Under the pieces are notes generated by a model. That model did no database searches and was not told the origin of the DNA. It saw nothing but the letters and a program-made list of their open reading frames with translations. From NCBI RefSeq assembly GCF_009363715.1, contig NZ_CP045404.1:2758001-2822000 (forward strand): DNA of 64,000 bases, given 5' to 3'. The position numbers and the translations under genes are program-made. Numbering within the stretch: position 1 is the stretch's first letter; each line of letters opens with the position of its first letter. The stretch is from Roseovarius sp. THAF9. Lineage in GTDB: Bacteria > Pseudomonadota > Alphaproteobacteria > Rhodobacterales > Rhodobacteraceae. Shown here piece after piece: positions 9,573 through 61,452 of this stretch.

Positions 9573-10357
9573 GACCACACCTCCCGCGCAAGATCGGCCA
9601 GCGCGGCGGTCACCTCTTCGGCGTGTGTCATCGGCATCATGTGCGCGGCGTCTTCGATGACCAACGCGCGGCCATCCGGGGCAAGGGCCGCCATCGCCCG
9701 CGACATCGCCGGCGTTGAATTCGGGTCACGCCCTCCCGTGGCGAAAAGCGCCGGACAAGTCAGCGCGCTGATTGCCATGCGGCTCGGACCCTCTGCGCAG
9801 GCAAAGGCCGTATAGGCCATCTTGTACCCTTTGGGGTCCACCGCGCGCAGCCATGCATCACAGGCCGTCCGCGCGGGCGAGCCCTGCGTGCCGAACCAGC
9901 GTTCCAGCGTGGGGGTCGGGCCCGGGTTCTGCACGCCATCAAGGCTCCCGGCGCGTGCCTGCACGGCCGAAGCCGCCTCCGGGGCGCGCTCGAACACGCC
10001 GTTCAGCACCCCAACCGCACAAACGCTGGACGGTGCGCAACTCGCGATTTCCAGCGCGGTCAGCGCCCCCATAGAGTGACCCGCGATCAGTGTAGGCTCG
10101 GACAGGCCCTCGATCAGCGGTAGAACGGCCGTAACGTAGTCGGACATGGAAACCGAGCCGCTCAGGCAGTCACTTTGCCCATGGCCGGGCATATCGGGCG
10201 CAATCACTCGATGATCACGGCTCAGGACATCGATCTGCGCGCCCCAGGCCAAGGCGTTGAGACCAACACCGTGCAACAGCACGATAGGCCTCCCCTCGCC
10301 CGCCTCCAACACGGACAGACCCATAACCTCAGACCGATGCAGGGTTGTCGAGGTCAT
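9569..10357 (-). CDS. Alpha/beta hydrolase
   Basis: The 262-residue protein has an oxyanion-hole HG motif (VLLHGVGLN), the nucleophile elbow GHSMG with S95, an acid at about D211 (TGGRDPNS) and the catalytic His near 239 (EDAAHMM). The size and MhpC/BioH-like pattern fit a single-domain ester, lactone or C-C bond hydrolase. It starts inside the last 29 bases of the upstream gene and its stop overlaps the flavin reductase start. In this operon it probably cleaves the oxygenated product, for example an ester or enol-lactone, before aldehyde oxidation. That order is inferred. Confidence 0.85.
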   Translation of the reverse strand: MTSTTLHRSEVMGLSVLEAGEGRPIVLLHGVGLNALAWGAQIDVLSRDHRVIAPDMPGHGQSDCLSGSVSMSDYVTAVLPLIEGLSEPTLIAGHSMGALTALEIASCAPSSVCAVGVLNGVFERAPEAASAVQARAGSLDGVQNPGPTPTLERWFGTQGSPARTACDAWLRAVDPKGYKMAYTAFACAEGPSRMAISALTCPALFATGGRDPNSTPAMSRAMAALAPDGRALVIEDAAHMMPMTHAEEVTAALADLAREVWS

Positions 10358-10928
10358 GGCCCAAATCCTTCAGATCCTGATAGCGGTCCCCGATCCGGTG
10401 ATGGGGCCGGCCGGACAAGGCGGCCCCCAGCACGACGACAACCTCGTCATCGCGGGGCGCATCGGGGATCGCGAATTGAATGGTCAGATAATGCGAGCGT
10501 CGTCCGGCGTCGTTCTTGTCCATCAGCGGCACCATGATCGGCGCATTGGCGGAACCGCGCGTGTTGGTGAAGGCAAGATAGGATTTGGCTTCGACCGCCT
10601 CGCGGTAAAAATTGCCGAACCGCAGGGTGTGGATCAAACCCGAGGCGTGCTCGATCTCGCCGTCAAGACCGACGACAGCCGCCTTTCCGTAGGCTTCGAT
10701 CGCCGCGCCTTTGCCGGCAAGGCCGATCATCCGGTCTGTCATCATCTTGCCAAGTGCGGGGCCGTATGCGCGAATTTCCGGGCCGAGGTCTTCGACGAAG
10801 CGGCCCGCCCACGGATTTCGTAACACGACCGCGACCGCAAACATGCGCCACGGCGTGCTGGCGGTACGGTATCCTTCGATCAGCACCTCTTCGTCGAACG
10901 TCACAATTTTCCGTATCTCAGGGGTCAT
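10329..10928 (-). CDS. DUF1185 'amino acid synthesis' family protein, function unknown
   Basis: The 199-residue protein resembles the family annotated as 'amino acid synthesis' (PF06684/DUF1185). Visible segments are KIVTFDEEVLIEGYR, FAVAVVLRNPWAG, GKGAAIEAYGKAAVVGLDG, EHASGLIHTLRFGN and RGSANAPIMVPLMDK. The family name is historical and the chemistry is not established. As first gene of the monooxygenase operon, next to the divergent LysR gene, it may bind or isomerise a pathway intermediate. I use the ATG at 10928 because family-like sequence starts with MTPEIRKIV. The 3' end overlaps the hydrolase gene by 29 bases. Confidence 0.7.
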   Translation of the reverse strand: MTPEIRKIVTFDEEVLIEGYRTASTPWRMFAVAVVLRNPWAGRFVEDLGPEIRAYGPALGKMMTDRMIGLAGKGAAIEAYGKAAVVGLDGEIEHASGLIHTLRFGNFYREAVEAKSYLAFTNTRGSANAPIMVPLMDKNDAGRRSHYLTIQFAIPDAPRDDEVVVVLGAALSGRPHHRIGDRYQDLKDLGHDLDNPASV

Positions 10929-11000
10929 CGCATCATCCTTTTGCCGATGCCCCAAGTTAGAAATCCGAGAAAATTTTGACAAACGAAGGGATTACCCCCA

Positions 11001-11025
11001 TAGGCATTAACAACACTAATACCTA
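11001..11025. promoter_or_regulatory. 25-base dyad, candidate LysR-type operator
   Basis: TAGGCATTA at 11001-11009 is mirrored by TAATACCTA at 11017-11025, with a 7-base spacer and one mismatch between the arms. It lies nine bases before the LysR ATG and 72 bases from the first codon of the divergent operon, where a LysR-type protein would both repress itself and activate the operon. Seen directly as an inverted repeat; binding is inferred. Confidence 0.55.
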
Positions 11026-11034
11026 CCTGAACGC

Positions 11035-11865
11035 ATGGCAAAATCTCTTCCTCCCCTCAGCTGGCTGCGTTCCTTCGAGGCCGCGGCGCGCAACCTCAGC
11101 TTCACGACCGCAGCCGAAGAAATTGGCCTCACCCAGTCGGCGGTCAGCCAGCAGGTCAAATCGCTCGAATCGCGGCTCGGCGTCCAACTTTTCATCCGCC
11201 ACGCACGGGGATTGGCCCTGACGGATGCGGGCCGCCGTCTGCTGCCCGAGGTCGACGCGCCGCTCCAAGCCTTGTCGCGCGCCATGGTCGGCATGGACAC
11301 ACGCCCGTCCCGTAACCTGCTCACGATCGCGTCCTCGATCAGCGTCGCACATTGGAAAATAGCGCCCCGCCTGACGGAGTTCAGAGCACGTTTCCCGCAA
11401 ACGGAGGTCAGGATTCTCAGCGCGATCTGGCCAGATGACTTCCACTCCACCCGCGCTGACGTCGAGATACGGTTCGGGTCCGCGCAGCAGGCCGGCCCCG
11501 AGGCCGAGGCGATCCTGCCGAACGACCTCATCGCGCTGAAGACGCCGACACTGAATGGCGATGTGGCAGACCTGCCGCTGATCGAAACGGTCGGCACATC
11601 CAGCGGTTGGCAGGCCTGGTCCAGACAGATCGAACCCGTGCCAAACCCGTCCATTTATACCGACACCTACGGCATGGCACTCCACCTCGCGGCGCAGGGC
11701 AACGGCGTGGTCTTGGCGAACGCGTGGCTGGCGCAATATGCCTTGGAAAACAAGCTTGTCACACGGGCGCATTCCGCATCGATCCCCAGCCAGGAGGGCT
11801 ACCACCTGTCGGTCAACAGGGACAAATGGCAGGCTGAGGCATTCCGGGAATGGCTGTTGAGTTAG
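11035..11865 (+). CDS. LysR family transcriptional regulator (GcvA-like)
   Basis: The 276-residue protein has an N-terminal winged helix-turn-helix: LSWLRSFEAAARNLSFTTAA, then EEIGLTQSAVSQQVKSLE and LGVQLFIRHARGLALTDAG. A periplasmic-binding-like effector domain follows. The LSWLRSFEAAAR start is typical of the GcvA-like branch. It is divergent from the DUF1185/hydrolase/flavin reductase/monooxygenase/ALDH operon with a 106-base gap that holds a dyad, so it is very likely that operon's regulator, responding to a substrate or intermediate. The gene ends 28 bases before the convergent PEP carboxylase stop. Confidence 0.88.
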   Translation: MAKSLPPLSWLRSFEAAARNLSFTTAAEEIGLTQSAVSQQVKSLESRLGVQLFIRHARGLALTDAGRRLLPEVDAPLQALSRAMVGMDTRPSRNLLTIASSISVAHWKIAPRLTEFRARFPQTEVRILSAIWPDDFHSTRADVEIRFGSAQQAGPEAEAILPNDLIALKTPTLNGDVADLPLIETVGTSSGWQAWSRQIEPVPNPSIYTDTYGMALHLAAQGNGVVLANAWLAQYALENKLVTRAHSASIPSQEGYHLSVNRDKWQAEAFREWLLS

Positions 11866-11893
11866 CGGCACCAATCGGCCAACCTACCGCGGC

Positions 11894-14554
11894 CTACCCG
11901 GTCCAGCCCAACCCCGAAGATATAGAGTTCATGGATTGAAGCAGCGGAATAGAAACCCGGTTCGGTTCATCCCGGGACCGCACATCGCGCAGCAGTGCCA
12001 CCTGCAGCGCATTGATCCGGTCCAGACCGGGACGTATCCTGTCAAATCGGGCTCTCATGCGTGGGAAACGCTCGGCAATGGTCTTCTGGCCGGTCAGGAA
12101 CGTGATCCCTTCGCAGGCCAGCGCGTATTCCTTGCGGACCGCCTCCGTGACACGCTTTCGGGTGTCGGCATCCGTGACCAGAGAGGCGTATTCCCCAGCG
12201 ATGCCGAGGTCGCTTTGAAAGAGCGACTTCTCCACCTCGTCCACGATCAGCCGGAACAGTTTGGTCTTCTCGAACATGGCGCGAAGCGTCTCCTCTCCGC
12301 GGGTGCCCTGGAATTTTCGAAACGACTCGATGGCCGAGCCAAACCCGTACCAGCCCGTGATCAGGTGCCGGTTCTGCGACCAGGCAAAGACCCAAGGAAT
12401 AGCTCGCAGGTCATCCAGCGACGCCGCGCCGAAACGGCGCGCAGGCCGCGAGCCGATCTTGAGCATGGCCAGCTCCTCCACCGGGCTGGCCTGCTGGAAA
12501 TAGTCGATGAAGCCGGGCATGTGCAGAAGCGTGGAATACGCGGTCTGCGACAGGCCCGACAGCGCATCCAGCGCATCGTTGAATTCCGGCGCACGGGGCG
12601 GATCGTGCGCATCCGCCGTATGTTTCAGAACGCTCGACGCCAGAAGCTCAAGATGCGCCGCCGCGGTGCCACGATTGGCATAGTTGGCCGACACGACCTC
12701 GCCCTGCTCCGTAAGGCGCATTCTGCCGTTCACGGTATCCGTCGGCTGGGCCGCGATGGCGCGGTCCATCGGAGCGCCGCCGCGGCTGACCGATCCGCCG
12801 CGCCCGTGAAAGAAGACAGGCTTCAGACCCTGCGACGCCAAGACCCGCGTGATCTTGCGCTGCGCCTGATCCAGTTCGCAGGTCGAGCATACGAAACCGC
12901 CATCCTTGTTGCTGTCTGAATAGCCGAGCATGACCTCGATCAAGGGCCCGTCCCGCGTCAGGCTGCGTTTTGCCAGCGGCACCTTCAGAAGGTCGACAAG
13001 GATATCCGGCCCCGCGCGCAGGTCCTTGATGGTCTCGAAAAGCGGTACGACCTTGAGCTCCAGCGTCTCTGCGCCGAAGCCCGCGTAGCGCGCCAGCAGG
13101 AACACCCCCAGCAGGTCGTCCGACGAGCGCGTCATCGACAAAATGAACGGGCCGACCGCCGCCGGGTCCGGGCCATACTGGCGCTTCGACATCAGGCTCA
13201 GAAGCTTGAGGAGCTCAATGGCCTGATCCGACAACGCGTTCTGGTCCGGCTCGGGCAGTTCCGGTTCGGCCAGCTCGGCCCGAAGCCGCTTCGACCACGC
13301 GGAATCGCCATATTCCGGCACCTCGCCATCGTCCCGGCTTCGCCAGATTTCGGCGATCGTGTCCGTCGTCACCGTGGAGTTCTGACGAATATCGAGCGTG
13401 TAGATGCTGAACCCGAAGACCGAGACACGCCAACGGATCGGTCGGATGTAGCGGCGCGCCAGTTTCACCGCGTCGACTGACTCAAGTGCCTTTTCGACCA
13501 TTTCCAGATCGGCAATGAAATGGCTGATATGCCGATACGTTTCCAATCGGTGCAGGATCGCCGAAATCGCCTGGCGGAACAGTTCGTTGGGGTTGCGGTC
13601 TTGCGTCGGTGAAAGCGAGGCCAGACGCTCAAGCTCGCCCTGCACCTCTGGGTCCAGCGGCACGATCCTGTTGCTGATGCTCAGGCGCTCCGCCGCAATC
13701 CGCAGATGTTCCTTGTACATGTCCATCACCGCGTCGCGCGCCCGTTTCAGCGCATGAGCGGTGCTGTCGGCAGTGACGTTCGGGTTGCCATCCCGGTCAC
13801 CGCCGATCCAGGAATGAAAGCGGATGCAGGGGGACACGGCGTCAGGCGTCCCGAACCTGTTCGTGGCGGCCAGCTCGAACTGCTCGAAGACCTGCGGTAC
13901 GGCGTCGAAGATCCCGTCGCGAAAGAACTGCAACCCCCACTCGATCTCGTCGCTCAGATCGGGACGTTCCAGCCGCAACTCGCCCGTCATCCACAGCAGG
14001 TCGATCTCACCCTCGATATCGGTAAGGATCGCGGCACGTTCCCGGCTGGTCCAGCGTTGCGCCTCCAATGAAACCAGATTGCGATAGATCCTGCGGTGGA
14101 TCTCCAGAACCGTGACACGCTTTGCTTCGGTCGGATGCGCCGTCAGGGTTGGTCCTACCGACAGGCTTTGTGATATCTCTGCAAAGCGCTCCCGCGTCAG
14201 ATCCTCGCGTGCCAGCGCTTGCGCGAAACTGCTGGGAACGGTCTCGGCCCCGCTTTGCGTCTCAACTTGGCGTCGGTCCCGAATTGTGGCGTTTTCCTCC
14301 ACGATCCTCAAAAGCTGGAACCAGATGTTCAGCGCCTGAAGGTAGGGCACGGCGCCCGGTCCCGCCGGAATGACGTGCTCGGTGTCGCTATGCGCCCACT
14401 CCGCAACATGAGGCGCGCGCCGCTTCAGCACGTTTCCCCAAAGATCGAAAAGCTCCCTGCGCAGGTCGGCGGCATAGGATTCGTCACTGTCGGTGACGTC
14501 GCAGGCGGCGTTCAGCAAAACCGACGGCATCAGCTGATGTCCCGGTTTGCGCAT
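11894..14554 (-). CDS. ppc: Phosphoenolpyruvate carboxylase
   Basis: The 886-residue enzyme carboxylates PEP with bicarbonate to oxaloacetate, refilling the TCA cycle. Diagnostic motifs are TLTAHPTEAKR with H140, GYSDSNKDGGF, and FHGRGGSVSRGG, with WIGGDRDGNPNVTADS in between. The length matches bacterial PEPC. The C-terminus ends in WTG rather than the common NTG; the terminal glycine, needed for activity in the family, is present. An alternative ATG 24 bases downstream (14530) is possible. It appears monocistronic, convergent with the LysR gene. Confidence 0.95.
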   Translation of the reverse strand: MRKPGHQLMPSVLLNAACDVTDSDESYAADLRRELFDLWGNVLKRRAPHVAEWAHSDTEHVIPAGPGAVPYLQALNIWFQLLRIVEENATIRDRRQVETQSGAETVPSSFAQALAREDLTRERFAEISQSLSVGPTLTAHPTEAKRVTVLEIHRRIYRNLVSLEAQRWTSRERAAILTDIEGEIDLLWMTGELRLERPDLSDEIEWGLQFFRDGIFDAVPQVFEQFELAATNRFGTPDAVSPCIRFHSWIGGDRDGNPNVTADSTAHALKRARDAVMDMYKEHLRIAAERLSISNRIVPLDPEVQGELERLASLSPTQDRNPNELFRQAISAILHRLETYRHISHFIADLEMVEKALESVDAVKLARRYIRPIRWRVSVFGFSIYTLDIRQNSTVTTDTIAEIWRSRDDGEVPEYGDSAWSKRLRAELAEPELPEPDQNALSDQAIELLKLLSLMSKRQYGPDPAAVGPFILSMTRSSDDLLGVFLLARYAGFGAETLELKVVPLFETIKDLRAGPDILVDLLKVPLAKRSLTRDGPLIEVMLGYSDSNKDGGFVCSTCELDQAQRKITRVLASQGLKPVFFHGRGGSVSRGGAPMDRAIAAQPTDTVNGRMRLTEQGEVVSANYANRGTAAAHLELLASSVLKHTADAHDPPRAPEFNDALDALSGLSQTAYSTLLHMPGFIDYFQQASPVEELAMLKIGSRPARRFGAASLDDLRAIPWVFAWSQNRHLITGWYGFGSAIESFRKFQGTRGEETLRAMFEKTKLFRLIVDEVEKSLFQSDLGIAGEYASLVTDADTRKRVTEAVRKEYALACEGITFLTGQKTIAERFPRMRARFDRIRPGLDRINALQVALLRDVRSRDEPNRVSIPLLQSMNSISSGLGWTG

Positions 14555-15071
14555 AGAGGGCGGCCCGCATGCACGTGACGCCCGTCAGGCCTTGCGAAAC
14601 TGCACCCGATGATATGTTTAGGCGTCCTGAAACAAATGCTTTCGCTTAGCCGCATGCCGTACATGATGTTCCTTCCCTTGTGGTATCGCTCACCAACCAG
14701 CGACTCAGCCGTCGCGTACGCTTTCCTGCCACACGTTTCACCTGACTTTAGCGCAATGGCGCCCTGTTCCTCAGCGTGAGGCTACTGTCCATGTCCGCTT
14801 ATTGGCCTGCGGATTCCGACAGAACCCAACGTGAATCCACCTGCCCGGCGACAATAGTTGCCCCGGCAAGGTGCCACAGCACCCCCGCTGCTGACTACCT
14901 ACACTTGAGTGTGAAGTCGCTTCAGGCGGGGCACCTCTGTTTGAGTGCTGTCGGCCTGAAACGAACGACATCATCCTGGCCCCGCGACCGTTTGAAAAAG
15001 ACGGCGGGCATTCCATCGACTGGAAAATAACCTCGGGCGTGATGAACGCGCTCGCCAGCCTTACTCCGTTG
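14555..15071. other. 517-base intergenic region
   Basis: It lies between the start of ppc and the 3' end of the CocE-type hydrolase gene, both on the minus strand. It should hold the ppc promoter. I see no convincing gene, RNA or repeat; the short open frames here have no SD-like sequence or recognisable residues. Confidence 0.4.
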
Positions 15072-17081
15072 TCAATTGTGGTCGCGCGGAATCCGAACGT
15101 CCCAGTCAAGCTCGCGGATGCAATCGCCGTTCAGAAACGCTTCAAGCCGCGCCGTGATCAGATAATCGCAGGCGGTGCAGGTCATTTGTGTCCGGGTGAC
15201 GGTTTTCACGCTCCAATCCTCGCGCGCCATCTCGTGGGTCCACGTCACCTCGCCGGTGGCCGAAGTCGGATCTTCGGGCAGAATCGTGTAACGTTCCTTG
15301 GCCGCGGCCGCGTGGAAATACCCCTGGCTCAGGATCGTCGCCGCGCCCTCGTCGTCGGTCACCTCGATGCTCAGCAGCCCGGTCTCGACGTCCTCGCCCA
15401 GACGCCAGGTCGCGCCGGGCGCGCGTTCAACGTCCAGCTCCAGCAACTCGGCCGACCGGGCCGGGCCGAAGGCATCGACCGCCTCGGGCGCGTCCTTGCG
15501 CATCGGCAGATCCAGCACGCACTCTCCCGTCAGCATGGTCAGGGTCACCGGCTCCGGCGCCGGCCAGGCAATGGGAAAATAACTGGTCGAAACGCCCAGC
15601 CGGATACGATGCCCCGCGCGGAAGGTCTGCGCGACATGCTTCATCGGCACGCGCACCGTGTATTGGCGCCCGGGCTCCAGATTTTCCGGCTGCTCGTGGC
15701 TTTCGCGATGCGTCAGGTTCAGCAAGCCATAGCTCACCCGTGTCGCCGCACCGTCGGGGGCCACGTCCATCAACCGCAGCGCCACCTGCGCCACCGGCTT
15801 GTCCACTTTGAACGTCAATGTCAGCCCCGGATCGCCTATCATGTGGCAATCCTCCTGCAAGGGTGCGGTCTGAAACGTCAGGCTGCCCGCATCCTCGCGC
15901 CGCTGGTCACCGGGCTGGTCCCCTGGATGCCCGTAAGAGCACCACTTGCCGCCATGCCGCCCGACCCAGAGCGGCGAGCAGATGTCCAGCGCGTCCTGCG
16001 GCCCCTCCACGCCAATGCCCCCGTCAGAAGTCAGCGAAAACGCGCGGCGTTCCACGTTGGGCGACGGCCATGACGGCTCGTCGATCCAGACACCCTCGCG
16101 CGTGTCATAATGTGTCTGTGGCCGGGCGTGATCCTGCAGGAACACACGCAGCTTCGGCTCATCCGCGATACTCGTGTCCCGCCCCTTCATCCACTGGTCC
16201 CACCAGCGCACCTCTTCGGTCAGCCAGTCGATCGCCGGACCCGGCTCGCCCAGATGCGGGTAGCGATGCGACCACGGCCCCACCAGCCCCTTCACCGGGC
16301 TCTTCAGGTTTTCCACCAGCCGGAACACTGCGCGGCAATAGCCGTCGGCCCAGCCGCTGACGGCATAGACCGGCACCTCGATATCCGAGAAATCCTCGCA
16401 GACCGACCCATGCTTCCAGAAAGCGTCCCGAGTCTGGTGCTGCATCCAGTTCTCCAGCCACAGGCCCGACCCGTCCAGTCGCTCTTCCCACATCCCGCGC
16501 CAGCGGTCGCCTACATGCGCGGGGTCCGGCGGCAGTGTATTGATCCCGAACATCACCGATGCCCATGACAGGTGATCACCCAGCAGCGTGCCGCCCATGT
16601 AATGGATGTCGTCGGCATACCGGTCATCCGTCGAACAGATCGTGACCACCGCCTTCAGCGCCGGGGGTCGCAGCGCGGCAAGCTGCAAGCCATTGAAACC
16701 GCCCCAGGAAATCCCGACGATCCCGACCCCGCCATCGCACCAGTCCTGCGCCGCGATCCACGCAATCACATCGCAGCCATCCTGCAGCTCTTCTTCGGTA
16801 TATTCGTCCGTCATCAGCCCTTCGGACTCGCCCGTGCCACGCAAGTCGACGCGCACATAGGCATAGCCCTGCGCCGCCATCCACGGCGCCCGGGCGTGAT
16901 CTCGCTCCAGCGTCTTGTCGTTCTTGCGATAGGGGATGAACTCAAGAATCGCCGGCACCGGCTCTGGGTCCGCGCCCTCCGGCATCCAGACCCGCGCCGC
17001 CAGCCGCGTGCCGTCCGGCATGGGGATTTCAAGATGCTCGATTTCTCGGATGGTCTGCGGCAGCGGATGGTCGATTATCAT
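15072..17081 (-). CDS. CocE/NonD family hydrolase (X-Pro dipeptidyl-peptidase-like S15)
   Basis: The 669-residue protein has the S15 layout. The alpha/beta hydrolase core starts with MPDGTRLAARVWMP, then VRVDLRGTGESEG, and nucleophile S125 in GISWGG. An acid appears in SGWADGYC and the histidine in GPWSHRYP. A C-terminal jelly-roll domain contains GHRIRLGVSTSYFP. Members cleave esters or acyl-peptides; NonD and CocE are esterases and others are aminopeptidases. It lies downstream of the cyanophycin genes on the same strand, separated by 151 bases, so a role in peptide breakdown there is possible but unproven. No signal peptide is seen, so it is probably cytoplasmic. Confidence 0.85.
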   Translation of the reverse strand: MIIDHPLPQTIREIEHLEIPMPDGTRLAARVWMPEGADPEPVPAILEFIPYRKNDKTLERDHARAPWMAAQGYAYVRVDLRGTGESEGLMTDEYTEEELQDGCDVIAWIAAQDWCDGGVGIVGISWGGFNGLQLAALRPPALKAVVTICSTDDRYADDIHYMGGTLLGDHLSWASVMFGINTLPPDPAHVGDRWRGMWEERLDGSGLWLENWMQHQTRDAFWKHGSVCEDFSDIEVPVYAVSGWADGYCRAVFRLVENLKSPVKGLVGPWSHRYPHLGEPGPAIDWLTEEVRWWDQWMKGRDTSIADEPKLRVFLQDHARPQTHYDTREGVWIDEPSWPSPNVERRAFSLTSDGGIGVEGPQDALDICSPLWVGRHGGKWCSYGHPGDQPGDQRREDAGSLTFQTAPLQEDCHMIGDPGLTLTFKVDKPVAQVALRLMDVAPDGAATRVSYGLLNLTHRESHEQPENLEPGRQYTVRVPMKHVAQTFRAGHRIRLGVSTSYFPIAWPAPEPVTLTMLTGECVLDLPMRKDAPEAVDAFGPARSAELLELDVERAPGATWRLGEDVETGLLSIEVTDDEGAATILSQGYFHAAAAKERYTILPEDPTSATGEVTWTHEMAREDWSVKTVTRTQMTCTACDYLITARLEAFLNGDCIRELDWDVRIPRDHN

Positions 17082-17232
17082 GAGAAACGCTCGGATCTAG
17101 GGGCGATGTGGTGTCCGAGCCCGCGTACCGCCCGCGCCGGCGGATGTCCAGCCGATGACACCAAAGCGCCCGATCCCGGGCCTAACCCGGGATCTCGCCC
17201 TCACGGGGATGCCGGCAAGATGCGCTGCCAGC

Positions 17233-18531
17233 TTACTCCTCGATGTCCGTGAACTCGTAATTCAGCCGCTTCATCACCTGCTCGTAATTCCAAAGCAGTT
17301 TCGACTGTTTCTGCGCCCCCATCCAGACCGACGCCACCGCATAGCTGTAGGCGTCCTGCTCCGGCAGCTCCGACAGTTTCGCGCCCTTTTTGACGTAAGA
17401 GGTGATGCGCGTGCCCTCTACCTGTTCGGCAGCGACCTCCACTTCGGCGCGCGACGGCGCACGGGCCACGGTCGCGTCGTTGAAGAACACCCGGTAGAAG
17501 AACTCCGCCGCGACGGTTTCCGGCCCTTCGCCCTGGGGCATGTCGGGCTTGCGGCCCAAGCCAAGATCGACTGTCACCTGCTGGTGGCTGACCCCATCGA
17601 CCATCTCGAAAAGGTCACAGTGGGACTGCGCGATGCGCGTGTTGATCTCCAGCAGCCAGATCTGGTTCTGCACCTCATCCCAATAATACTCGATGTTGAA
17701 CCCGGCATTGTCATAACCGATATGCTTCATCACCGTCTTGGTGATCTCGGCCATCTGCTCCTGGATGCGCGGCGGCAGGGTGGACGGGTAGAGATAGTAG
17801 AAAAAGCTCAGAACCTGCGGATAGCGGATCGAATCCACCGTGCCGTAAGGAACGACCTCGCCGTTATGCACGTAGCCCTCGACGGTGCATTGCCGCCCGC
17901 CGATCACCCGCTCGGCCATGCAGTAATGCCCTTCCACCGCTTTGACGTCTTCGGGCAGGTTGGCCTTGTTCAGGATATAATTGAACGGCTCGGAAATCTC
18001 GTTGATCTCGGCGCGGAAGGCCTCGGTCGCGTAGGCGAAATCCTCGGGGCTATCGATGCGAAAGCCAAGCCGCGAGCCGGACGACTTGATCGGCTTCACG
18101 AAAAAGGGAAAGCGTAGACCCGCCTCGCCGATCTTGGACAAGGCCTCGTCGTCGAACGGGTCAAAAGCGGTGAAGTTGGGCGTATGATCGGGGATCACCT
18201 CGGCCATGACCTTGCGCGACCAATACTTGTGCTCGCATTTCAGAAGCGATTCCAGGGACGCGTTCCGCGTACCGTATTTCTCGCACAAGAGCGGCAGCAT
18301 GGTGGACACCGGAAAGTCGATATAGCCCACGATCGCGTCGATCGAGCCGTCGAAGGCATCCAGCGTCTCTTCGGCCCGGCGCAGCATGTCCGGGATATCG
18401 AAAATCTGCGTGTCCGACACTTCGGCAGAGGTCAGAAGCGGGTGGAACTCCACATCCTCCACGCCGCGCAGTCGCTTCAGGCGCTCTGCGTTCAATTCGT
18501 TCATTCCGACGACGAAAACGTTCTTGGTCAT
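17233..18531 (-). CDS. Stand-alone ATP-grasp carboxylate-amine ligase-like enzyme linked to cyanophycin genes
   Basis: The 432-residue protein has an N-terminal Rossmann-like pre-ATP-grasp domain (NVFVVGMNELNAERLKRLRG). An ATP-grasp fold follows, with the ATP lysine motif FVKPIKSSGSRLG at 144-156, a central EGYVHNGEVVPYG, and the metal-binding E295-x-N297 in WLLEINTR. ATP-grasp enzymes make an acyl-phosphate and couple it to an amine or thiol. It begins 69 bases after the cyanophycin synthetase stop, with an AGGGGA ribosome site, so it is probably co-transcribed. It is not a CphA fragment, because it lacks the Mur-ligase half. It could make a primer, a dipeptide or a modified side chain for cyanophycin. 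The product is not recognisable from sequence. Confidence 0.75.
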   Translation of the reverse strand: MTKNVFVVGMNELNAERLKRLRGVEDVEFHPLLTSAEVSDTQIFDIPDMLRRAEETLDAFDGSIDAIVGYIDFPVSTMLPLLCEKYGTRNASLESLLKCEHKYWSRKVMAEVIPDHTPNFTAFDPFDDEALSKIGEAGLRFPFFVKPIKSSGSRLGFRIDSPEDFAYATEAFRAEINEISEPFNYILNKANLPEDVKAVEGHYCMAERVIGGRQCTVEGYVHNGEVVPYGTVDSIRYPQVLSFFYYLYPSTLPPRIQEQMAEITKTVMKHIGYDNAGFNIEYYWDEVQNQIWLLEINTRIAQSHCDLFEMVDGVSHQQVTVDLGLGRKPDMPQGEGPETVAAEFFYRVFFNDATVARAPSRAEVEVAAEQVEGTRITSYVKKGAKLSELPEQDAYSYAVASVWMGAQKQSKLLWNYEQVMKRLNYEFTDIEE

Positions 18532-18552
18532 ATCTGTCCCCTATGGGTGAAA

Positions 18553-18568
18553 CGCCCGAAACCGGGCG
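18553..18568. promoter_or_regulatory. Intercistronic hairpin between cphA and the ATP-grasp gene
   Basis: CGCCCG at 18553-18558 pairs perfectly with CGGGCG at 18563-18568 around an AAAC loop. No T-run follows in the direction of transcription, so this looks like an mRNA processing or stability hairpin rather than a terminator. Confidence 0.35.
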
Positions 18569-18600
18569 CGGTTCCCAGTCTTGTGTCGTTCCGCGCCCCG

Positions 18601-21243
18601 TTACGTCTGCGCCAGATCCGCCTGTGTGCCATAGGTACGACCCTTGAGCCGTTCCGTTGCACCCTCGATGTCATCGACCAGCAACAACAGGAAATCCCCC
18701 GGCTTCGCCTCTGAAATGGCGCGATCCATCGCGGCTTGCTCGTCCATGATGAGCTCGACCGCGCCTGCGGCGCCGGCGTCTTTCGCGCCCTGTTCGATCA
18801 ACCTGCCGGTCTCGCCTTCGCTGCGTCCGCGCGCATCGGTCTCGTAAACGTAGACCGCGTCGCACATCTTCGCCAATTGCGCACCCAGCGCAGCAAGGTC
18901 CTCGTCCCGGCGGTTGCCCGGGGCCGTGGCCACCGCGATCTTGCGCTGTTGCCCCAGGCCGTTGACCAGCGGCTCCAACGCCTCCAGCGCCGGGACGTTG
19001 TGGCCATAGTCGATCAGGCATTTCACGCCGTCGGCCTCGAAGTAGTTGGTCCGCCCCGGCATCTGCGCCGGTGTCGGGTGGAAGCTCAACAGACCCGCGC
19101 GGATATCGTCGATCTCAAGCCCGTGCGCCAGCGCGGCAGCCGTGGCCGCCATGGCGTTCTGCACGTTGAAGGGCGCGTGCCCCTCGAAGGAAATCGGAAC
19201 GTCGTTGACCGCCGCCACCTCGACCTCGACCTGGCCACGCAACAGCACGATCCGGCCTTGGCGCACGGTAACAACCATCTTGTGGTCGGCCAGATGGTCC
19301 TTCAGGTCCGGGTTGTCGGGGTCCATCGTGAAGTAGATGATCTCGCCCCGCGCCCAGTAGGTGCCCTGGTCCATCACCAGCGGGTCGTCGGCGTTCAGCA
19401 CGCAAAAGCCGCCGATCTTCTTGACCGCGTCGACGACCACAGTCTTGCACCGCGCCAGTTCGTCCAGCGTATGAATGTCACGCTCGCCCAGATGATCCGA
19501 CGCGATGTTCAGCAACACGCCCACATCGCATTCGTCAAACCCGAGGCCCCGGCGCATGATCCCGCCGCGCGCAACTTCCAGAACGGCGTGTTCCACCGTC
19601 GGCTCGTGCAGCACCGCGTGTGCGGCGGCGGGGCCGGAATAGTCGCCCCGCAGGATGACGTGATTGTCGATCTCGATCGTGCCGGTACAGCCCATGCCCA
19701 CCGAGTTGCCCGCCTGCCGCAGGATATGCGTGATCAGGCGCGTCGTCGTGGTTTTGCCGTTGGTGCCGGTGATCGCGGTGATCGGGATACGTCCGTCATC
19801 CGTTGGATCCGGGAACAGCATGTCGACAACAGCCTCGCCGACCGGCCGCGGCGTGCCGTGGGTGGGTGCCATATGCATCCGAAAACCGGGGCCCGCATTG
19901 ACCTCGACCACCCCGGCCGATTGCTGGTCCAGCGGTTTGGACAAGGTTTCGGCCAGCATATCGATCCCGATGATATCCAGACCGACAATCCGTCCGATCC
20001 GTTCCATCGCGAACTTGATCTCGGGATGCACCTCGTCGGTCAGGTCCGTAGCGGTGCCGCCGGTCGAGATGTTGGCGGTGGATTTCAGATAGATGATCTC
20101 GCCCTTAGCGGGCACGGAGTCGAGCGTCAACTCGGCCTGCTCCAGCAGGCGCATCGTCTGTTCGTCCACGATGATCTGGGTCAGCAGGTTCTCGTGCCCC
20201 ACACCGCGGCGCGGGTCCTCGTTTTCCTTGTCGATCAATTGCTGGATGGTGGAGGTGCCGTCACCTTCGACATGTGCCGGACGGCGGCGGGCGGCGGCTA
20301 TCATCTTGCCGCCGACGACGAGAATGCGGTGATCTTCGCCCTTGATATAGCTCTCGACGATCACCGCTCCGTAATCGTCGCGACAGCGCGCCAGCGCCGC
20401 CTCGTAGCCCGATTTCAGCTCTTCCTCGTTGGTGATGTCGGTGGTCACGCCGCGCCCGTGGTTGCCCGACAGCGGCTTGGTGACGACCGGCCAGCCGATC
20501 CAGTCAGCCGCATCCTTGATCTCGTCCCAGGAATAACAGATGTAGCCCTTGGGCACCGCCACGCCGGCATCATCGAGCACCTGCTTGGTCCACTCCTTGT
20601 CGTCGGCAATCGAGTGTCCGATGATGCCCGACGCATCCGTCACGGTCGCCTGAAACTTGCGCTGCTTCACGCCATGGCCCAGCTGGGTATAGCTGGTGCC
20701 TTCGGTCAGATTGTACCACGGGATATTGCGCGCTTTCGCGGCGTTCACGATCGACCCGGTGGACGGTCCCAGCGCGTTCGCGTCCCGGACCTCTTTCAGC
20801 CTGTCGATCACCGGCTCCAGATCCACGTCCTTGCCATCGTAAAGCGCTTGCACGATCTCGACCGCCTCTTCGCCGCAGGCCAGCCCACTCGCTTCGTCGC
20901 GATAGCGGTAGACGACGTGGTAGACACCCTTGTCGTAGCTGTCGACGGTCTTGCCGTAGCCCACCGAAAAGCCGATCAGGTTCTGCAATTCGATCGCCAC
21001 ATGCTCGACCATGTGCCCGGCCCAGGTGCCGTCTTTCACCCGGGACAAAAAACCACCAGCCTCTCCGACAGAGCAGCGATGCTCGTAAATCGTGGGGATC
21101 AGCGCTTGCAGCTTGTCAGCAATGCCGTCGACCTTGTCACTCGGCCGGTCTTCGAGTTCCTCGATGTCCAGCCGCATATAGATCGACTGATAGCGACTGT
21201 AGTAGTTCGGTCCGCGCAGCGCACGGTGTTCAAGTATACGCAT
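18601..21243 (-). CDS. cphA: Cyanophycin synthetase
   Basis: The 880-residue protein has the three-part CphA architecture. An N-domain (residues 1 to about 160, MRILEHRALRGPNYYS) is followed by an ATP-grasp domain (about 160-485) with WPVVTKPLSGNHGRGV and VVEVNAGPGFRMH. A Mur-ligase-like domain (about 486-880) carries the P-loop GTNGKTTTT near residue 493. The enzyme adds Asp to the backbone and Arg to its side chains, using ATP, to make multi-L-arginyl-poly-L-aspartate storage granules. Length matches CphA1 enzymes (about 870-900), and both active domains look intact. Its start overlaps the cyanophycinase 3' end by 14 bases, so both are in one operon. Confidence 0.93.
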   Translation of the reverse strand: MRILEHRALRGPNYYSRYQSIYMRLDIEELEDRPSDKVDGIADKLQALIPTIYEHRCSVGEAGGFLSRVKDGTWAGHMVEHVAIELQNLIGFSVGYGKTVDSYDKGVYHVVYRYRDEASGLACGEEAVEIVQALYDGKDVDLEPVIDRLKEVRDANALGPSTGSIVNAAKARNIPWYNLTEGTSYTQLGHGVKQRKFQATVTDASGIIGHSIADDKEWTKQVLDDAGVAVPKGYICYSWDEIKDAADWIGWPVVTKPLSGNHGRGVTTDITNEEELKSGYEAALARCRDDYGAVIVESYIKGEDHRILVVGGKMIAAARRRPAHVEGDGTSTIQQLIDKENEDPRRGVGHENLLTQIIVDEQTMRLLEQAELTLDSVPAKGEIIYLKSTANISTGGTATDLTDEVHPEIKFAMERIGRIVGLDIIGIDMLAETLSKPLDQQSAGVVEVNAGPGFRMHMAPTHGTPRPVGEAVVDMLFPDPTDDGRIPITAITGTNGKTTTTRLITHILRQAGNSVGMGCTGTIEIDNHVILRGDYSGPAAAHAVLHEPTVEHAVLEVARGGIMRRGLGFDECDVGVLLNIASDHLGERDIHTLDELARCKTVVVDAVKKIGGFCVLNADDPLVMDQGTYWARGEIIYFTMDPDNPDLKDHLADHKMVVTVRQGRIVLLRGQVEVEVAAVNDVPISFEGHAPFNVQNAMAATAAALAHGLEIDDIRAGLLSFHPTPAQMPGRTNYFEADGVKCLIDYGHNVPALEALEPLVNGLGQQRKIAVATAPGNRRDEDLAALGAQLAKMCDAVYVYETDARGRSEGETGRLIEQGAKDAGAAGAVELIMDEQAAMDRAISEAKPGDFLLLLVDDIEGATERLKGRTYGTQADLAQT

Positions 21244-22090
21244 CCTTCAGCTCCAGGCTCTCGGCCCCAAGCTGTTTGGCACTCAGGACCTGCCGGTCCG
21301 CCAGGTTGTATCCATCACCCTCGACCAGCGCATGCATCACGACGTTGTGGACGCTCACCGCCTCACCGTCTGATAAGTCGAATACATTGCAACTGGTTAT
21401 GTCCGAACTGTCAACGAGGATTACGTGACCGGGCCCAAAGGCCTTTATGACACCGTTCTCGAACAATACGGCCGCGTCTTCACCCAACCCGATCCCCAGG
21501 TATTCGGGGTTGGTGGCCCCCACTTCCATCAGCCGCGAAAATCGGCCGCGCTCCAGAAAATGGGTGTCGATGATGACCCCTTCGATCAGGCCGAAACCGG
21601 CGCTCATTTTCACCGCGCCCTTGCGAAGGCTGTCGATCGCGCTGCCGCCATATACCATCGTGCTTGATTGGCAGGCCGCGCCGGCGCTGGTCCCCGCGAT
21701 CACGGCGCCCTCTAGGTAAATGGATCGAATCGCCTCTAGTGCCTCCGAAGCGCCGAAGATGCTGGTCAGGCGCATCTGGTCACCGCCGGATATGAAAAGC
21801 ACGTCACACTTTCGGATCATTTCGACCATCTTGGCATCATCGGCATCGGACCGCTCGCGGATGCGCACATCAAGCACTTCGGCCGCGCCCAGCGCGCTGA
21901 ACGCCTCTTCGTACGCTGGAAAGACCTCATCGGGGATGCTGCTGGCGGTGGTGATCACACCGACGACCGGCGCCTCGGCAGAGGATAATTTCAGGACCCG
22001 CCCAAGAATGGCCGCCTTTGCCGATTTGTCTTCGGCGCCGCCAATTGCGACAAGTTTGCCCCGGGGCAACGGTTTCACGGACATATCCAT
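21230..22090 (-). CDS. cphB: Cyanophycinase (S51 serine peptidase)
   Basis: The 286-residue protein shows the S51 nucleophile motif GTSAGA with S135, preceded by DVLFISGGDQMRLTS, and a family N-terminus GKLVAIGGAEDK. Cyanophycinase cuts the polymer exolytically to beta-Asp-Arg dipeptides. I chose the ATG at 22090 because GGAG stands seven bases upstream; an ATG two codons later (22084) also fits, and an earlier in-frame start at 22153 lacks support. It is the first gene of the operon with cphA and the ATP-grasp gene, and is divergent from the isoaspartyl peptidase that would process its product. Confidence 0.92.
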   Translation of the reverse strand: MDMSVKPLPRGKLVAIGGAEDKSAKAAILGRVLKLSSAEAPVVGVITTASSIPDEVFPAYEEAFSALGAAEVLDVRIRERSDADDAKMVEMIRKCDVLFISGGDQMRLTSIFGASEALEAIRSIYLEGAVIAGTSAGAACQSSTMVYGGSAIDSLRKGAVKMSAGFGLIEGVIIDTHFLERGRFSRLMEVGATNPEYLGIGLGEDAAVLFENGVIKAFGPGHVILVDSSDITSCNVFDLSDGEAVSVHNVVMHALVEGDGYNLADRQVLSAKQLGAESLELKDAYT

Positions 22091-22206
22091 CGAGTAACTC
22101 CATCCATCTCTGGACTCATATCTATATGTTGTGGATGTTACCATCCCGTTCACAAGAATGTCACGTTAACCAAGCCCCGCAACTGCAAAAGCGGTCGCAA
22201 CGTCAC

Positions 22207-22229
22207 GAATCCCGCGCTATGTGGGATTC
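22207..22229. promoter_or_regulatory. Perfect inverted repeat in the cphB/iaaA divergent promoter region
   Basis: GAATCCC at 22207-22213 and GGGATTC at 22223-22229 are perfect mirror arms with a 9-base spacer. The repeat lies 50 bases before the peptidase ATG and about 117 bases before the cphB ATG, a fitting place for an operator that controls both directions. No regulator gene is adjacent. Confidence 0.4.
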
Positions 22230-22279
22230 TCGGCAACCAAAGCCCGCCAAAACGGCACGAAACAAGGCAGGAGCAAGAT

Positions 22280-23206
22280 ATGAGCGACGGATTTGCACTG
22301 GCGATTCACGGTGGTGCCGGGGTTCTGCCCCGGTCGGAGATGAGCGCAGAGCGTGAAGCCGCCTGTCACGCCGCGCTTGCCCGCGTTCTGGAGGCGGGTG
22401 AGTCGGTGCTCGCCGCCGATGGCACTGCACTCGACGCCGTCACGGCGGCGGTCCGCGCGTTGGAGGATGAGCCGCTGTTCAACGCCGGGCGCGGCGCCGT
22501 CTTTACCCGTGCAGGAACGCACGAGATGGACGCCGCCCTCATGGACGGGCGCGACCGCCGCGCCGGGGCCGTGGCGGGTATCTGCGGCCCGCGCCACCCG
22601 GTCGACGCCGCCCGCGCGGTCATGGAGCATACCTCGCACGTGCTCATGGCCGGCGAAGGCGCGCACACAGTCGCCCGCGAGGCCGACCTGCCGTTCGAGA
22701 AAGAGAGCTATTTCTTCACGCAGGAGCGTTGGGACACGCTGCAAGAGACCTTGCAGATGGAGGCCGACGGCACGCTCGACGACGACCCTTCACGGCGCCA
22801 CGGCACCGTCGGCGCCGTGGCCCGCGACCGGGCCGGAAACCTTGCCGCTGCCACCTCCACCGGCGGCATGACAGCCAAAAGCGCCGGACGCATCGGCGAC
22901 AGCCCCCTGATCGGCGCCGGCACGCTCGCTCTCAACGAAAGCTGCGCGGTCTCGGCCACCGGCGACGGCGAGGCGTTCATCCGCCTGTCGGTCGCACATG
23001 AAATCGACGCCCGTATCCGCTTGGCCGGCCAGACCGTCACCGACGCCGCGGCGCAGGTGGTGATGCATGGTCTCGTGGCCATAGGGGGATCGGGGGGTCT
23101 CATTGCCATCGGCGCGGACGGCACCGTCACCATGCCCTTCAACTGCGAAGGCATGTATCGCGGCCAGTCGGTCGAAGGAGGGCAGCGCGACACCTTGATC
23201 TACTGA
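22280..23206 (+). CDS. iaaA: Isoaspartyl peptidase / L-asparaginase (Ntn hydrolase)
   Basis: The 308-residue precursor starts SDGFALAIHGGAG, has FNAGRGAVFT, and carries the autocleavage site before T176 in RRHGTVGAVARD. Cleavage makes alpha and beta chains with Thr as N-terminal nucleophile. GGMTAKSAGRIGDSPLIGAG is the conserved beta-chain segment. The enzyme splits beta-aspartyl dipeptides. Beside cphB this points to beta-Asp-Arg hydrolysis to aspartate and arginine, the last step of cyanophycin use. An SD (GGCAGGAG) lies upstream of the ATG. An L-asparaginase side activity is usual in the family. Confidence 0.9.
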   Translation: MSDGFALAIHGGAGVLPRSEMSAEREAACHAALARVLEAGESVLAADGTALDAVTAAVRALEDEPLFNAGRGAVFTRAGTHEMDAALMDGRDRRAGAVAGICGPRHPVDAARAVMEHTSHVLMAGEGAHTVAREADLPFEKESYFFTQERWDTLQETLQMEADGTLDDDPSRRHGTVGAVARDRAGNLAAATSTGGMTAKSAGRIGDSPLIGAGTLALNESCAVSATGDGEAFIRLSVAHEIDARIRLAGQTVTDAAAQVVMHGLVAIGGSGGLIAIGADGTVTMPFNCEGMYRGQSVEGGQRDTLIY

Positions 23207-34842: not shown

Positions 34843-35235
34843 GTGCAGGGCGCAGATGATACTCGGCTGACGGTCTACTACGACGGGTCCTGCCCGCTAT
34901 GCCGTGCTGAAATAGGCTTCTATCAGAAACGCGACCGGGCAGATCGCATCAATTTCACCGACATCTCGCGCAGCCCGGCAGACCCCGCACCCGACCTTGA
35001 CCGCGATGCGGCAATGGGCCGGTTCCACACTCGCCGCCCCGACGGCACCCTAGTGTCCGGAGCCGCCGGTTTCTTCGAGGTGTGGAAACGCCTGCCCGGC
35101 TGGCGACACCTTGCAAAACTCTCGCGCATTCCGGGCGTCGTGCCGCTTGCCGAATTGGCATACCGCGCGTTCCTCATCCTGCGTCCGGCCCTCGTGCGCC
35201 TGCTCGGTCCCATGCTGCGTCGCCGGTCGGCCTGA
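34843..35235 (+). CDS. DCC-family thiol-disulfide oxidoreductase-like protein (DUF393)
   Basis: The 130-residue protein shows the DCC family signature DGSCPLC with C17 and C20, then INFTDIS and [18 protein letters not shown]. The family is predicted to be thioredoxin-like, but its substrates are unknown. The start is a GTG two bases after the response-regulator stop, and the next gene starts two bases after its own stop, so it is in an operon. A hydrophobic C-terminal helix ([20 protein letters not shown]) suggests membrane association. Confidence 0.8.
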
Positions 35236-35237
35236 CC

Positions 35238-36074
35238 ATGCCCGAACCCGCTCCATTCAGACGGTTTCTCGTTTTGCTGCGCGGCAACTTTTCGCCCGAA
35301 CCGGGCGCGCGCCGGATCATCACGGCTTTGCTGATCGGCGCGGTCGTCCACAGCATCTTCGCCATCGCGGTTGTTTCCATGATCGTCGGCATGTTTTTCG
35401 GCATGAGCCGCGCCTTCGGCAGCGTTCCTGCCCTGTGGCACTGGCTCGCGAACGCGGCCCTTTTGCTGCAATTTCCCCTCGCCCATTCGCTTTTGCTGAA
35501 CGGCCGCGGCCCGCGCATCGTGGCGCGGATTGTACCCGGGCAATACGGCGGCACGCTCGCGACCAGTACCTTCGCCATCATCGCCTCGCTTCAGCTTGCC
35601 GCGCTTTTTCTCCTCTGGACGCCCTCCGGCATCGTCTGGTGGCAGCCGGACGGTGCCATCTTCGCGGCGCTCTGCACCGCCTACGCTGCCTCTTGGCTAT
35701 TGCTGATCAAGGCCAGCATCGACGCCGGCGCCGAGGTACAGTCGGGCGCCTTGGGTTGGATGTCGATGCTGCAGGAGATCAAACCGCGCTATCCGGATAT
35801 GCCCCGAACCGGCCTCTTTCGCATCATACGACAGCCGATCTACGTGTCCTTCGCGCTTACCACCTGGACCGTTCCTGTCTGGACGCCTGACCAGCTTTTG
35901 CTTGCAAGCGTTTTCACGGCCTACTGCCTTCTTGCTCCGGTTCTCAAAGAACGTAGGTTCCGCGCGCGCTACGGCGCAAAGTTCGACGCCTACCAGGCCA
36001 AGGTGCCCTATGCCGTGCCGCGCTTTACCGCCGGGTCCCCAGCGCCAAATCCCAGCTCACGAGACCACGGATGA
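35238..36074 (+). CDS. ICMT/MddA-like integral membrane methyltransferase family protein
   Basis: The 278-residue protein has five or so membrane helices: IITALLIGAVVHSIFAIAVV, ANAALLLQFPLAHSLLL, STFAIIASLQLAALFLLW, AALCTAYAASWLLLI, and a last helix near LLASVFTAYCLLAPVL. The C-terminal part GLFRIIRQPIYVSFAL and KERRFRARYGAKFDAYQ resembles the SAM-binding tail of isoprenylcysteine methyltransferase-like (PEMT, NnrU, MddA) proteins. The substrate is not known. It sits between the DCC protein and the UbiB-type kinase, with the latter's ATG overlapping its stop. Confidence 0.7.
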   Translation: MPEPAPFRRFLVLLRGNFSPEPGARRIITALLIGAVVHSIFAIAVVSMIVGMFFGMSRAFGSVPALWHWLANAALLLQFPLAHSLLLNGRGPRIVARIVPGQYGGTLATSTFAIIASLQLAALFLLWTPSGIVWWQPDGAIFAALCTAYAASWLLLIKASIDAGAEVQSGALGWMSMLQEIKPRYPDMPRTGLFRIIRQPIYVSFALTTWTVPVWTPDQLLLASVFTAYCLLAPVLKERRFRARYGAKFDAYQAKVPYAVPRFTAGSPAPNPSSRDHG

Positions 36075-58758: not shown

Positions 58759-59754
58759 ATGCCTAACCCCAGCGCGCGCAAGGCGCTAAACCTGAGATGG
58801 TTGGAAATCTTTCAGCTGTGCGCGCGGAACGGCTCACTCCGGCAGACGGCAGACGCGACCGGACTGTCGGTCAGTACCGTGTCGCACCACCTGCGCAGCC
58901 TGGAGCATCACCTGGGCGTCGCGCTTTTCAATCATACGCGCCGGCCGATGGTTCTGACACCGAAAGGGCACGTGTTTCTGCGCGACATCGATATCGCACT
59001 GCGGGCAATCCGCAAGGCCAAGGCGGAGGCGTCGGCGGGGAACCTGACCGAGGCCAGCCATCTGAGACTGGGCACGATCGAGGATCTTGAAAGCGACGTG
59101 ATACCGGACCTGGCCGTTCACCTGTCGCAACGGATGCCCGATTGCGATTTTTTGTATCATACGGCCACGAGCCGAGAGATCATCGAGATGCTGCGCGACC
59201 GGGAGCTGGACCTCGGCATTGCGACCGCGCCGCCGGACCGGTTGCGCGACCTTCAGGACAGGCCACTGTTACGGGATCCCTTCGTCATCGTATTGCCGGC
59301 GGGGGTGGAGCCGTCGGTGTCCGAAGTGCTGAAAGATGGGTTCAGCCTGCCGTTCCTGCAGTTTTCCAGCGACCTGATCATCGCCCGGCAGATCGAGGCC
59401 CAGCTGCGCCGCGTGGGGTTCACCCTGCCGCACAAGTTCGAATGCGGCAGCAATCAGACGCTGATGGCGATGGTCGCGGCGGGGGCGGGATGGACGATCA
59501 CCACGCCGCTTCTGTTCTCGCGGGCGAAGCGGTTCCAGCCGCAGTTGCTGATGCAGCCCTTTCCGGGCAAGCGGTTTGCGCGGACGCTGTCGCTGATCAC
59601 GACGCCGGATTGTTCGCGGTCGATGCTGGATATCGTGAACGGCAGGATTCGCCGCGCGCTTGAAACGCAGGTGATACGGCCGTTGGTCGCGACCGCGCCG
59701 TGGCTTGAAAACCAGTTCAAGCTGGTTGATGCGGTTGGTGAGGATCAGTCGTAG
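58759..59754 (+). CDS. LysR family transcriptional regulator
   Basis: The 331-residue regulator has the N-terminal helix-turn-helix: LNLRWLEIFQLCARNGSLRQ, TADATGLSVSTVSHHLRSLE, and LGVALFNHTRRPMVLTPKG. An effector-binding domain follows with HLRLGTIEDLESDVIPDLAV and MVAAGAGWTITTPLLFSR. It is convergent with the MttB-family gene, overlapping its 3' end by ten bases, so it is the best candidate regulator of the methylated-amine genes, though it does not face their promoter. The closest upstream DNA is the IS remnant. Confidence 0.85.
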   Translation: MPNPSARKALNLRWLEIFQLCARNGSLRQTADATGLSVSTVSHHLRSLEHHLGVALFNHTRRPMVLTPKGHVFLRDIDIALRAIRKAKAEASAGNLTEASHLRLGTIEDLESDVIPDLAVHLSQRMPDCDFLYHTATSREIIEMLRDRELDLGIATAPPDRLRDLQDRPLLRDPFVIVLPAGVEPSVSEVLKDGFSLPFLQFSSDLIIARQIEAQLRRVGFTLPHKFECGSNQTLMAMVAAGAGWTITTPLLFSRAKRFQPQLLMQPFPGKRFARTLSLITTPDCSRSMLDIVNGRIRRALETQVIRPLVATAPWLENQFKLVDAVGEDQS

Positions 59755-61265: not shown

Positions 61266-61452
61266 GAGGGTCCGCTTTCGTCGTTGAGGGCTGGGTTGAT
61301 CTGGGCAGGATATGTCGAGGCGGGCAAGACTTGGTGGAGAGAATTCGAAAATATCGAAATACAATTCCAGTAATATCGTAATAACCGCGTTTCGGTTGCC
61401 AGAACGGCAAAATCACGCCCCAGTCGCGAACAGACATCGACGGAGACGGATC
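61266..61452. promoter_or_regulatory. Divergent promoter region between the MttB-family and FAD-dehydrogenase genes
   Basis: An AT-rich stretch at 61331-61385 in otherwise GC-rich DNA. A small dyad TTGCC-AGAAC-GGCAA (61396-61410) lies 43 bases before the dehydrogenase ATG, and AACCG-CGTTT-CGGTT (61383-61397) overlaps it. These are weak operator candidates. Confidence 0.35.

Follow-up and report, generated by a model that had tools for sequence, protein, structure and literature searches.

A conserved ATP-grasp/S15 hydrolase gene pair accompanies a separate CphA subfamily and may serve the side-chain unit of a cyanophycin relative

What does a stand-alone ATP-grasp gene do beside the genes of cyanophycin metabolism, and which of its neighbours belong to it? 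We addressed this question for a stretch of 64,000 nucleotides of Roseovarius sp. THAF9 (contig NZ_CP045404.1, positions 2,758,001 to 2,822,000; genome size 4.56 Mb), hereafter called the window. On its minus strand, the gene for a stand-alone ATP-grasp ligase of 432 residues with a predicted L-amino-acid-ligase-like fold (17233-18531) follows cphA (18601-21243) after a gap of 69 bases, and cphA overlaps the preceding cphB by 14 bases. A first-pass annotation of this DNA had grouped these three genes with a facing isoaspartyl peptidase gene as a four-gene module. All four genes are indeed located where it placed them, but its boundary is one gene short, since on the same strand, 151 bases downstream of the ATP-grasp gene, lies a fifth gene (15072-17081). 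Its product is an S15/CocE-NonD family hydrolase of 669 residues (TIGR00976, 247.8 bits versus a cut-off of 66.3). We tentatively propose, with a probability of about 0.42, that the ATP-grasp enzyme and the S15 hydrolase make and break the side-chain unit of a cyanophycin relative, which would have an aspartate backbone and a side chain other than plain arginine.

The S15 gene is the most constant neighbour of the ATP-grasp gene. Among the close ATP-grasp loci (the best 80 of 457), it stands less than 1 kb 3' of the ATP-grasp gene on the same strand in 72; CphA is encoded in 60 of the 80 and an IaaA-type peptidase in 43. In locus L029 the S15 gene lies about 1 kb beyond the ATP-grasp gene with one open reading frame (ORF) in between, and in 7 of the 80 it is not in the locus. 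When six of these seven genomes were searched (all but that of L054), S15 was found elsewhere in five, one of the matches being only partial. A tree of ATP-grasp proteins (96 rows) contains a clade of 81 rows, clade I (support 100/99), which spans Alphaproteobacteria, Halomonadaceae and Thermodesulfobacteriota; the window protein itself is 97-98% identical to several Roseovarius proteins. In a Halomonadaceae sample of 111 genomes, whose family was assigned via a protein of genome G760 that is 99-100% identical to Halomonas proteins, S15 is directly downstream of 49/49 clade-I copies and of 14/16 distant copies. Samples at the class, phylum and family level were drawn regardless of the ATP-grasp gene (385, 398 and 198 genomes, the window's genome in each) and contain it in 11, 10 and 3 genomes, respectively. 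They yielded 17 distant loci with an ATP-grasp identity of 32-42%. Ten of these have S15 directly downstream (ATP-grasp 35-41%, S15 53-59% identity), and the other seven have no S15 within a flank of about 1.5 kb. In a larger stretch around locus L135, S15 was located about 5.5 kb from the ATP-grasp gene on the opposite strand, adjoining a gene for an oligopeptide-type solute-binding protein. No third constant partner was found among the 20 neighbour or replacement ORFs scanned, a subset of the neighbours; those beside the pair are of unrelated kinds (GST, ThiI, luciferase-like protein, isocitrate dehydrogenase, amine oxidase and others). ATP-grasp and S15 are an old two-gene unit, and this is the conserved unit of the cluster.

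Some other arrangements occur around these genes. The S15 homologue of L135 closes a gene run (10211-17709) with the solute-binding protein and ORFs that may be its ABC transporter. Eight genomes of the Halomonadaceae sample (G748, G952, G962, G967, G983, G1002, G1028 and G1042) have two to three paralogous ATP-grasp genes, most of them with a downstream S15 of their own. Ferruginivarius sediminum has, about 2.4 kb from an ATP-grasp/S15 pair, another ATP-grasp gene (L079:4280-5626), whose product contains the LAL_C2 domain. Some ATP-grasp relatives among the most remote (32-34% identity) have as their neighbour a gene for a metallo-beta-lactamase-fold hydrolase in place of S15 (L138:10093-11064 by Pfam, L140:542-1525 by the same ORF cluster), which is perhaps another ligase/hydrolase pairing.

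Because its only Pfam matches at an E-value of 0.001 are PF13535 and CPSase_L_D2, the ATP-grasp protein is not a piece of CphA. As previously annotated, it comes with an N-domain of its own and an intact metal site. Its ATP-grasp core is complete, with E281, E295 and N297 invariant in an alignment of 44 sequences. Its predicted structure has the L-amino-acid ligase fold and is closest to enzymes of that kind, at 14-15% identity. Compared with the L-amino-acid ligases BL00235, BacD/YwfE and RizA, it retains a CPSase/biotin-carboxylase-like E-x-N-T-R signature. The LAL_C2 domain (PF18603) is not among its Pfam matches at the same E-value, and we therefore call the protein ligase-like instead of filing it as a member of the L-amino-acid ligases. 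Some databases name such a protein a biotin carboxylase/urea carboxylase-type carboxylase, and its C-terminal similarity to carboxylases is real. A carboxylase identity is nevertheless very unlikely, as the best model (urea carboxylase) gave 41.4 bits versus a cut-off of 1303.85, the biotin carboxylase models gave at most 31 bits, and no biotin carrier was found among the seven genes scanned. Moreover, the biotin carboxylase motif is NTRIQVEH, in which the Glu is the catalytic base, and the ATP-grasp protein has NTRIAQSH, without this Glu.

The S15 protein shares its fold and catalytic triad with the CocE/NonD and S15 hydrolases (cocaine esterase, alpha-amino-acid ester hydrolase, X-prolyl dipeptidyl peptidase). 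S125, D246 and H272 are invariant across 32 sequences, and from the motif we take them to be the Ser-Asp-His triad. No signal peptide was seen by eye. It differs from these families in two respects: about 140 C-terminal residues of the window protein (after 530) lie outside the structural matches listed, and it is constantly paired with an ATP-grasp ligase. The N-acetylglutaminylglutamine amide operon consists of an ATP-grasp/GNAT enzyme, an amidotransferase and an M42 hydrolase; the likeness presumably lies in the coupling of an ATP-grasp amide ligase to a matching hydrolase, and the families differ. In our proposal, the ATP-grasp enzyme would be a ligase like the L-amino-acid ligases, forming an amide bond at the expense of ATP, and the S15 hydrolase would cleave that bond. 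Sharing a substrate, the two would make and break one small amide or dipeptide.

The literature searched gave no paper on ATP-grasp with peptidase S15 or on ATP-grasp with CocE in an operon. Among the matches listed for cyanophycin (ATP-grasp gene clusters, Halomonas, altered composition), none describes the pair, for which we thus found no assigned role in the literature searched. The Discussion of PMC10206079 raises the possibility that an S15-like gene with weak similarity to cocaine esterase on one Roseovarius contig (NZ_SJEY01000003, the contig of locus L024) encodes an isoaspartyl dipeptidase; the terms 'ATP-grasp' and 'ligase' do not occur in the main text of that paper. On this reading, S15 would be an additional isoaspartyl dipeptidase for beta-Asp-Arg, and the ATP-grasp enzyme would be a separate matter. 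We regard this as quite improbable, since the 43 loci with an IaaA-type gene, L024 included, already have such an enzyme, ten Halomonadaceae loci hold an amidohydrolase that may be IadA, and S15 stays beside the ATP-grasp gene where CphA is absent.

The pair is tied to one subfamily of CphA. The window CphA (880 residues; TIGR02068, 1128.7 bits versus a cut-off of 850) belongs to a distinct subfamily. In the Halomonadaceae sample, 49 of the 111 genomes have the clade-I gene, 36 have CphA and 62 have neither, and all 36 CphA-bearing genomes are among the 49 with the clade-I gene and S15 pair (Fisher p = 1.4e-18, uncorrected for shared descent). CphA lies within 5 kb of the clade-I gene in 14 of the 36 and not within 5 kb in 22; in one of the latter, G1033, it is about 2.3 kb from a contig end, so linkage may be hidden. 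Three genomes of the class and family samples (G000, G034 and G925) combine a window-type CphA (100, 70 and 79% identity) with the ATP-grasp gene, and the gene is absent from 9/9 genomes with other CphAs (40-44% identity; G098, G241, G173, G323, G792, G795, G797, G804 and G897). With the window's own genome excluded, 38/38 genomes with a window-type CphA in these samples, all drawn regardless of the ATP-grasp gene, carry the gene versus 0/9 with another CphA. Twenty clade-I loci have no CphA nearby. In 11 of the 19 genomes searched for these, a CphA that passes the curated cut-off is encoded elsewhere; the remaining eight, all Halomonadaceae, have none over that cut-off. The tie of the pair to this CphA subfamily is hence well supported even where the genes are unlinked, as they often are, and in this respect the previously suggested link of the ATP-grasp gene to cyanophycin is borne out.

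Some of the residues that set this CphA subfamily apart from other CphAs are at presumed contacts with the side-chain unit. We compared 111 window-type CphAs (at least 63% identical to that of the window) with 142 others (at most 44%), of which 120 came from one protein search, 15 from the genome samples (six genomes twice) and seven from plasmids. These rows include duplicates, with 100 and 135 remaining after removal of near-identical sequences and 15 and 32 at 80%; solved CphA1 entries were compared in separate alignments only. Position 777, in the M-domain motif PG[D/N]RR, is N in 111/111 window-type CphAs and D in 142/142 others. The solved entries 7lg5, 7wac and 7lgn, which we take to be from Synechocystis, Thermosynechococcus and Tatumella, respectively, also have D there. 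In an alignment to the MurE of the same genome, PG[D/N]RR falls on GGDRD and the next loop, which is one residue shorter in the window-type CphAs, falls on DDNPR; both MurE motifs presumably bind the incoming amino acid. A charge reversal at position 801 was also considered and was dropped, because the alignment shows Glu there in 7lg5.

Position 211 is S in 65, G in 44 and A in 2 of the 111 window-type CphAs, and E in 109, D in 21, A in 6, S in 3 and G, N and Q in one each of the 142 others. It corresponds to E215 of TeCphA1, described in PMC9427784 as in contact with the terminal unit of the polymer through that unit's arginine side chain. As reported there, E215A removed most of the activity of TeCphA1, and a like change left SuCphA1 with nearly half. 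The residues N394, S396, R323, R309 and R458 (TeCphA1 numbering), to which PMC9427784 assigns the binding of the aspartate substrate or of the polymer's carboxylate, are the same in 111/111 window-type CphAs and in the others. As the window CphA has S211 for E215 and N777 for the D of PGDRRD, arginine specificity does not follow for the window-type enzymes; the family name CphA stands, because neither feature is a curated defining one.

A parallel difference was found in CphB (21230-22153, minus strand, 307 residues with an uncertain GTG start; TIGR02069, 221.8 bits versus a cut-off of 126.6). The window enzyme has D-T-H-F where SyCphB has D172-Q173-H-F (alignment to 3en0). D-T/S-H-F is present in 73/73 linked enzymes and D-Q-H-F in 15/15 others (70 and 12 distinct sequences, hits of at most 150 residues being left out), and both 3en0 and 7uqv carry Q at this position. 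We assume that Q173 of SyCphB has a role in the pocket. The nucleophile motif G-T/S-S-A-G is present in 73/73. Because residues presumed to touch the side-chain unit differ in both CphA and CphB and the aspartate contacts are unchanged, we favour a variant side chain. A cyanophycin variant had already been suggested in the first-pass annotation, and these differences lend separate support to that idea; the chemistry itself, that is, the altered side chain and all substrate identities, we infer.

Two other roles near the polymer were weighed. The ATP-grasp enzyme could modify finished cyanophycin, e.g. by attaching an amino acid to the carboxyl group that is free in the arginine side chain, with S15 removing it. 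The genetics would be the same as in our proposal, and a ligase-type fold with a hydrolase partner would suit this role, but it would not alone explain the altered M-domain residues of CphA, and the pair is also present in CphA-less genomes; we hold it to be improbable. The primer peptide for CphA, which had been suggested as the product of the ATP-grasp enzyme and would be compatible with an operon position downstream of cphA, is a most unlikely one. Cx19HxxEH, the primer-making site of CphA1 found in 83% of nr70 CphA1s according to PMC9262961, is at position 57 of the window CphA and is kept in 59/59 window-type CphAs tested, so no extra primer enzyme is needed; the occurrence of the ATP-grasp gene in genomes without CphA also speaks against primer making.

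In the proposal of a variant side chain, the clade-I pair would work with the separate CphA/CphB subfamily and its altered side-chain-unit contacts, supplying and recycling the side-chain unit of the polymer. Every kind of bond would thus be served by a single ligase site and a single hydrolase: the CphA G domain and CphB for the backbone bond, the CphA M domain and the isoaspartyl peptidase for the link between backbone and side chain, and ATP-grasp and S15 for the side-chain unit. The peptidase gene (22280-23206, plus strand, 308 residues) is divergent from cphB with 126 bases in between. It is called IaaA-type because its product matches PF01112 (331.2 bits) but stays, at 306.8 bits, below the NF007589 equivalog cut-off of 567. 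PMC10206079 describes the enzyme of a like cluster in Roseivivax halodurans (locus L034) as a promiscuous beta-aspartyl dipeptidase.

Several observations weigh against this proposal. The clade-I pair occurs without CphA in 13/49 Halomonadaceae genomes, and hence the earlier description of the ATP-grasp gene as 'dedicated' to cyanophycin is not supported. The distant clade is without CphA in 9/9 class-sample genomes and 9/15 Halomonadaceae genomes. Relatives occurring mostly without cphA had been named in advance as a sign against the cyanophycin link; this applies to the distant clade but not to the close one. Conversely, L027, L050, L051, L053 and L054 carry CphA without S15 beside the ATP-grasp gene (S15 is elsewhere in all four searched genomes, those of L027, L050, L051 and L053), and the draft genome of L061 has CphA but no S15 match. 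As to the ligase, no curated L-amino-acid-ligase model matches the ATP-grasp protein in profile searches, CPSase and urea-amidolyase-type enzymes score like BL00235 by sequence profile, and Foldseek ranks 4dim first for the predicted structure by E-value. As to CphA, 120 of the 142 other sequences derive from one search with one query and no row is known to be cyanobacterial; A, S, G, N or Q is found at position 211 in 12 of the 142 too. Strictly disjoint columns between the two groups number 36 of 852, so any single change could be drift after an old divergence. Finally, CphAs are loose towards Lys, Orn and Cit according to PMC8560796, and altered residues therefore do not have to imply a different side chain in nature.

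The main rival explanation arises here. The pair may make and degrade a free dipeptide or amide that serves as compatible solute or carries nitrogen, using amino acids released from cyanophycin. In that case the polymer would be plain Asp-Arg, and the residues of CphA and CphB would have changed by drift of their clade. The CphA-less genomes with the pair, in clade I as in the distant clade, would be expected from a free solute, many hosts are halophiles or marine bacteria by their names, and the 36 disjoint columns may simply mean that the CphA clade is old. However, the pair is present in 36/36 CphA genomes, 22 of them without linkage within 5 kb, which is tighter than a shared amino-acid pool needs; the CphB pocket residue also differs, and the ATP-grasp gene is lacking in 9/9 other-CphA genomes. 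We consider a free solute with an ordinary polymer possible but rather unlikely.

A bolder version of the side-chain proposal, which we regard as doubtful, is an undescribed storage polymer with an aspartate backbone whose side chains are all, instead of arginine, amide or dipeptide units assembled by the ATP-grasp enzyme. It would be dismantled in three matched steps by CphB, the isoaspartyl peptidase and S15, and in CphA-less genomes the side-chain unit would be produced by the same pair in free form, as a solute. Cyanophycin counts as a single chemical, and homology decides which genes bear its name. If the CphA/CphB subfamily, whose hosts are mostly halophilic and marine bacteria, does have altered side-chain contacts and a ligase and hydrolase of its own, nature may hold a second polyaspartate storage polymer, so far filed under the wrong name. 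Such a polymer would also bring new peptide-polymer enzymes and give the ATP-grasp/S15 pair a use.

Compared with the known CphA1/CphB/IaaA-IadA system, the window cluster shares CphA and CphB over their cut-offs, an adjoining isoaspartyl peptidase, and, within CphA, the aspartate pocket, the ATP motifs and the primer-making site. Unlike that system, it adds an ATP-grasp ligase and an S15 hydrolase, its CphA falls into a subfamily of its own, with no more than 44% identity to the other CphAs compared, and both CphA and CphB show fixed differences at presumed contacts with the side-chain unit. The earlier interpretation of the locus is supported as regards the cyanophycin tie but not as regards dedication, primer making and the four-gene boundary.

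In two Desulfobacteraceae metagenome-assembled genomes (L050:7079-9520 and L051:9334-11776), an aspartate/ornithine carbamoyltransferase gene (by Pfam in L050, by the same cluster in L051) comes after cphB, cphA and the ATP-grasp gene, and an ORF of 428-441 residues also follows in both. Elsewhere in the window, a 330-residue ORF (35082-36074) with no Pfam match at 1e-8 lies directly upstream of an ABC1 kinase-like gene. At 59745-63888, an MTTB-family methyltransferase gene is divergent from a DAO/GCV_T gene (dimethylglycine or sarcosine dehydrogenase-like), and these two genes perhaps belong to methylated-amine or betaine metabolism.

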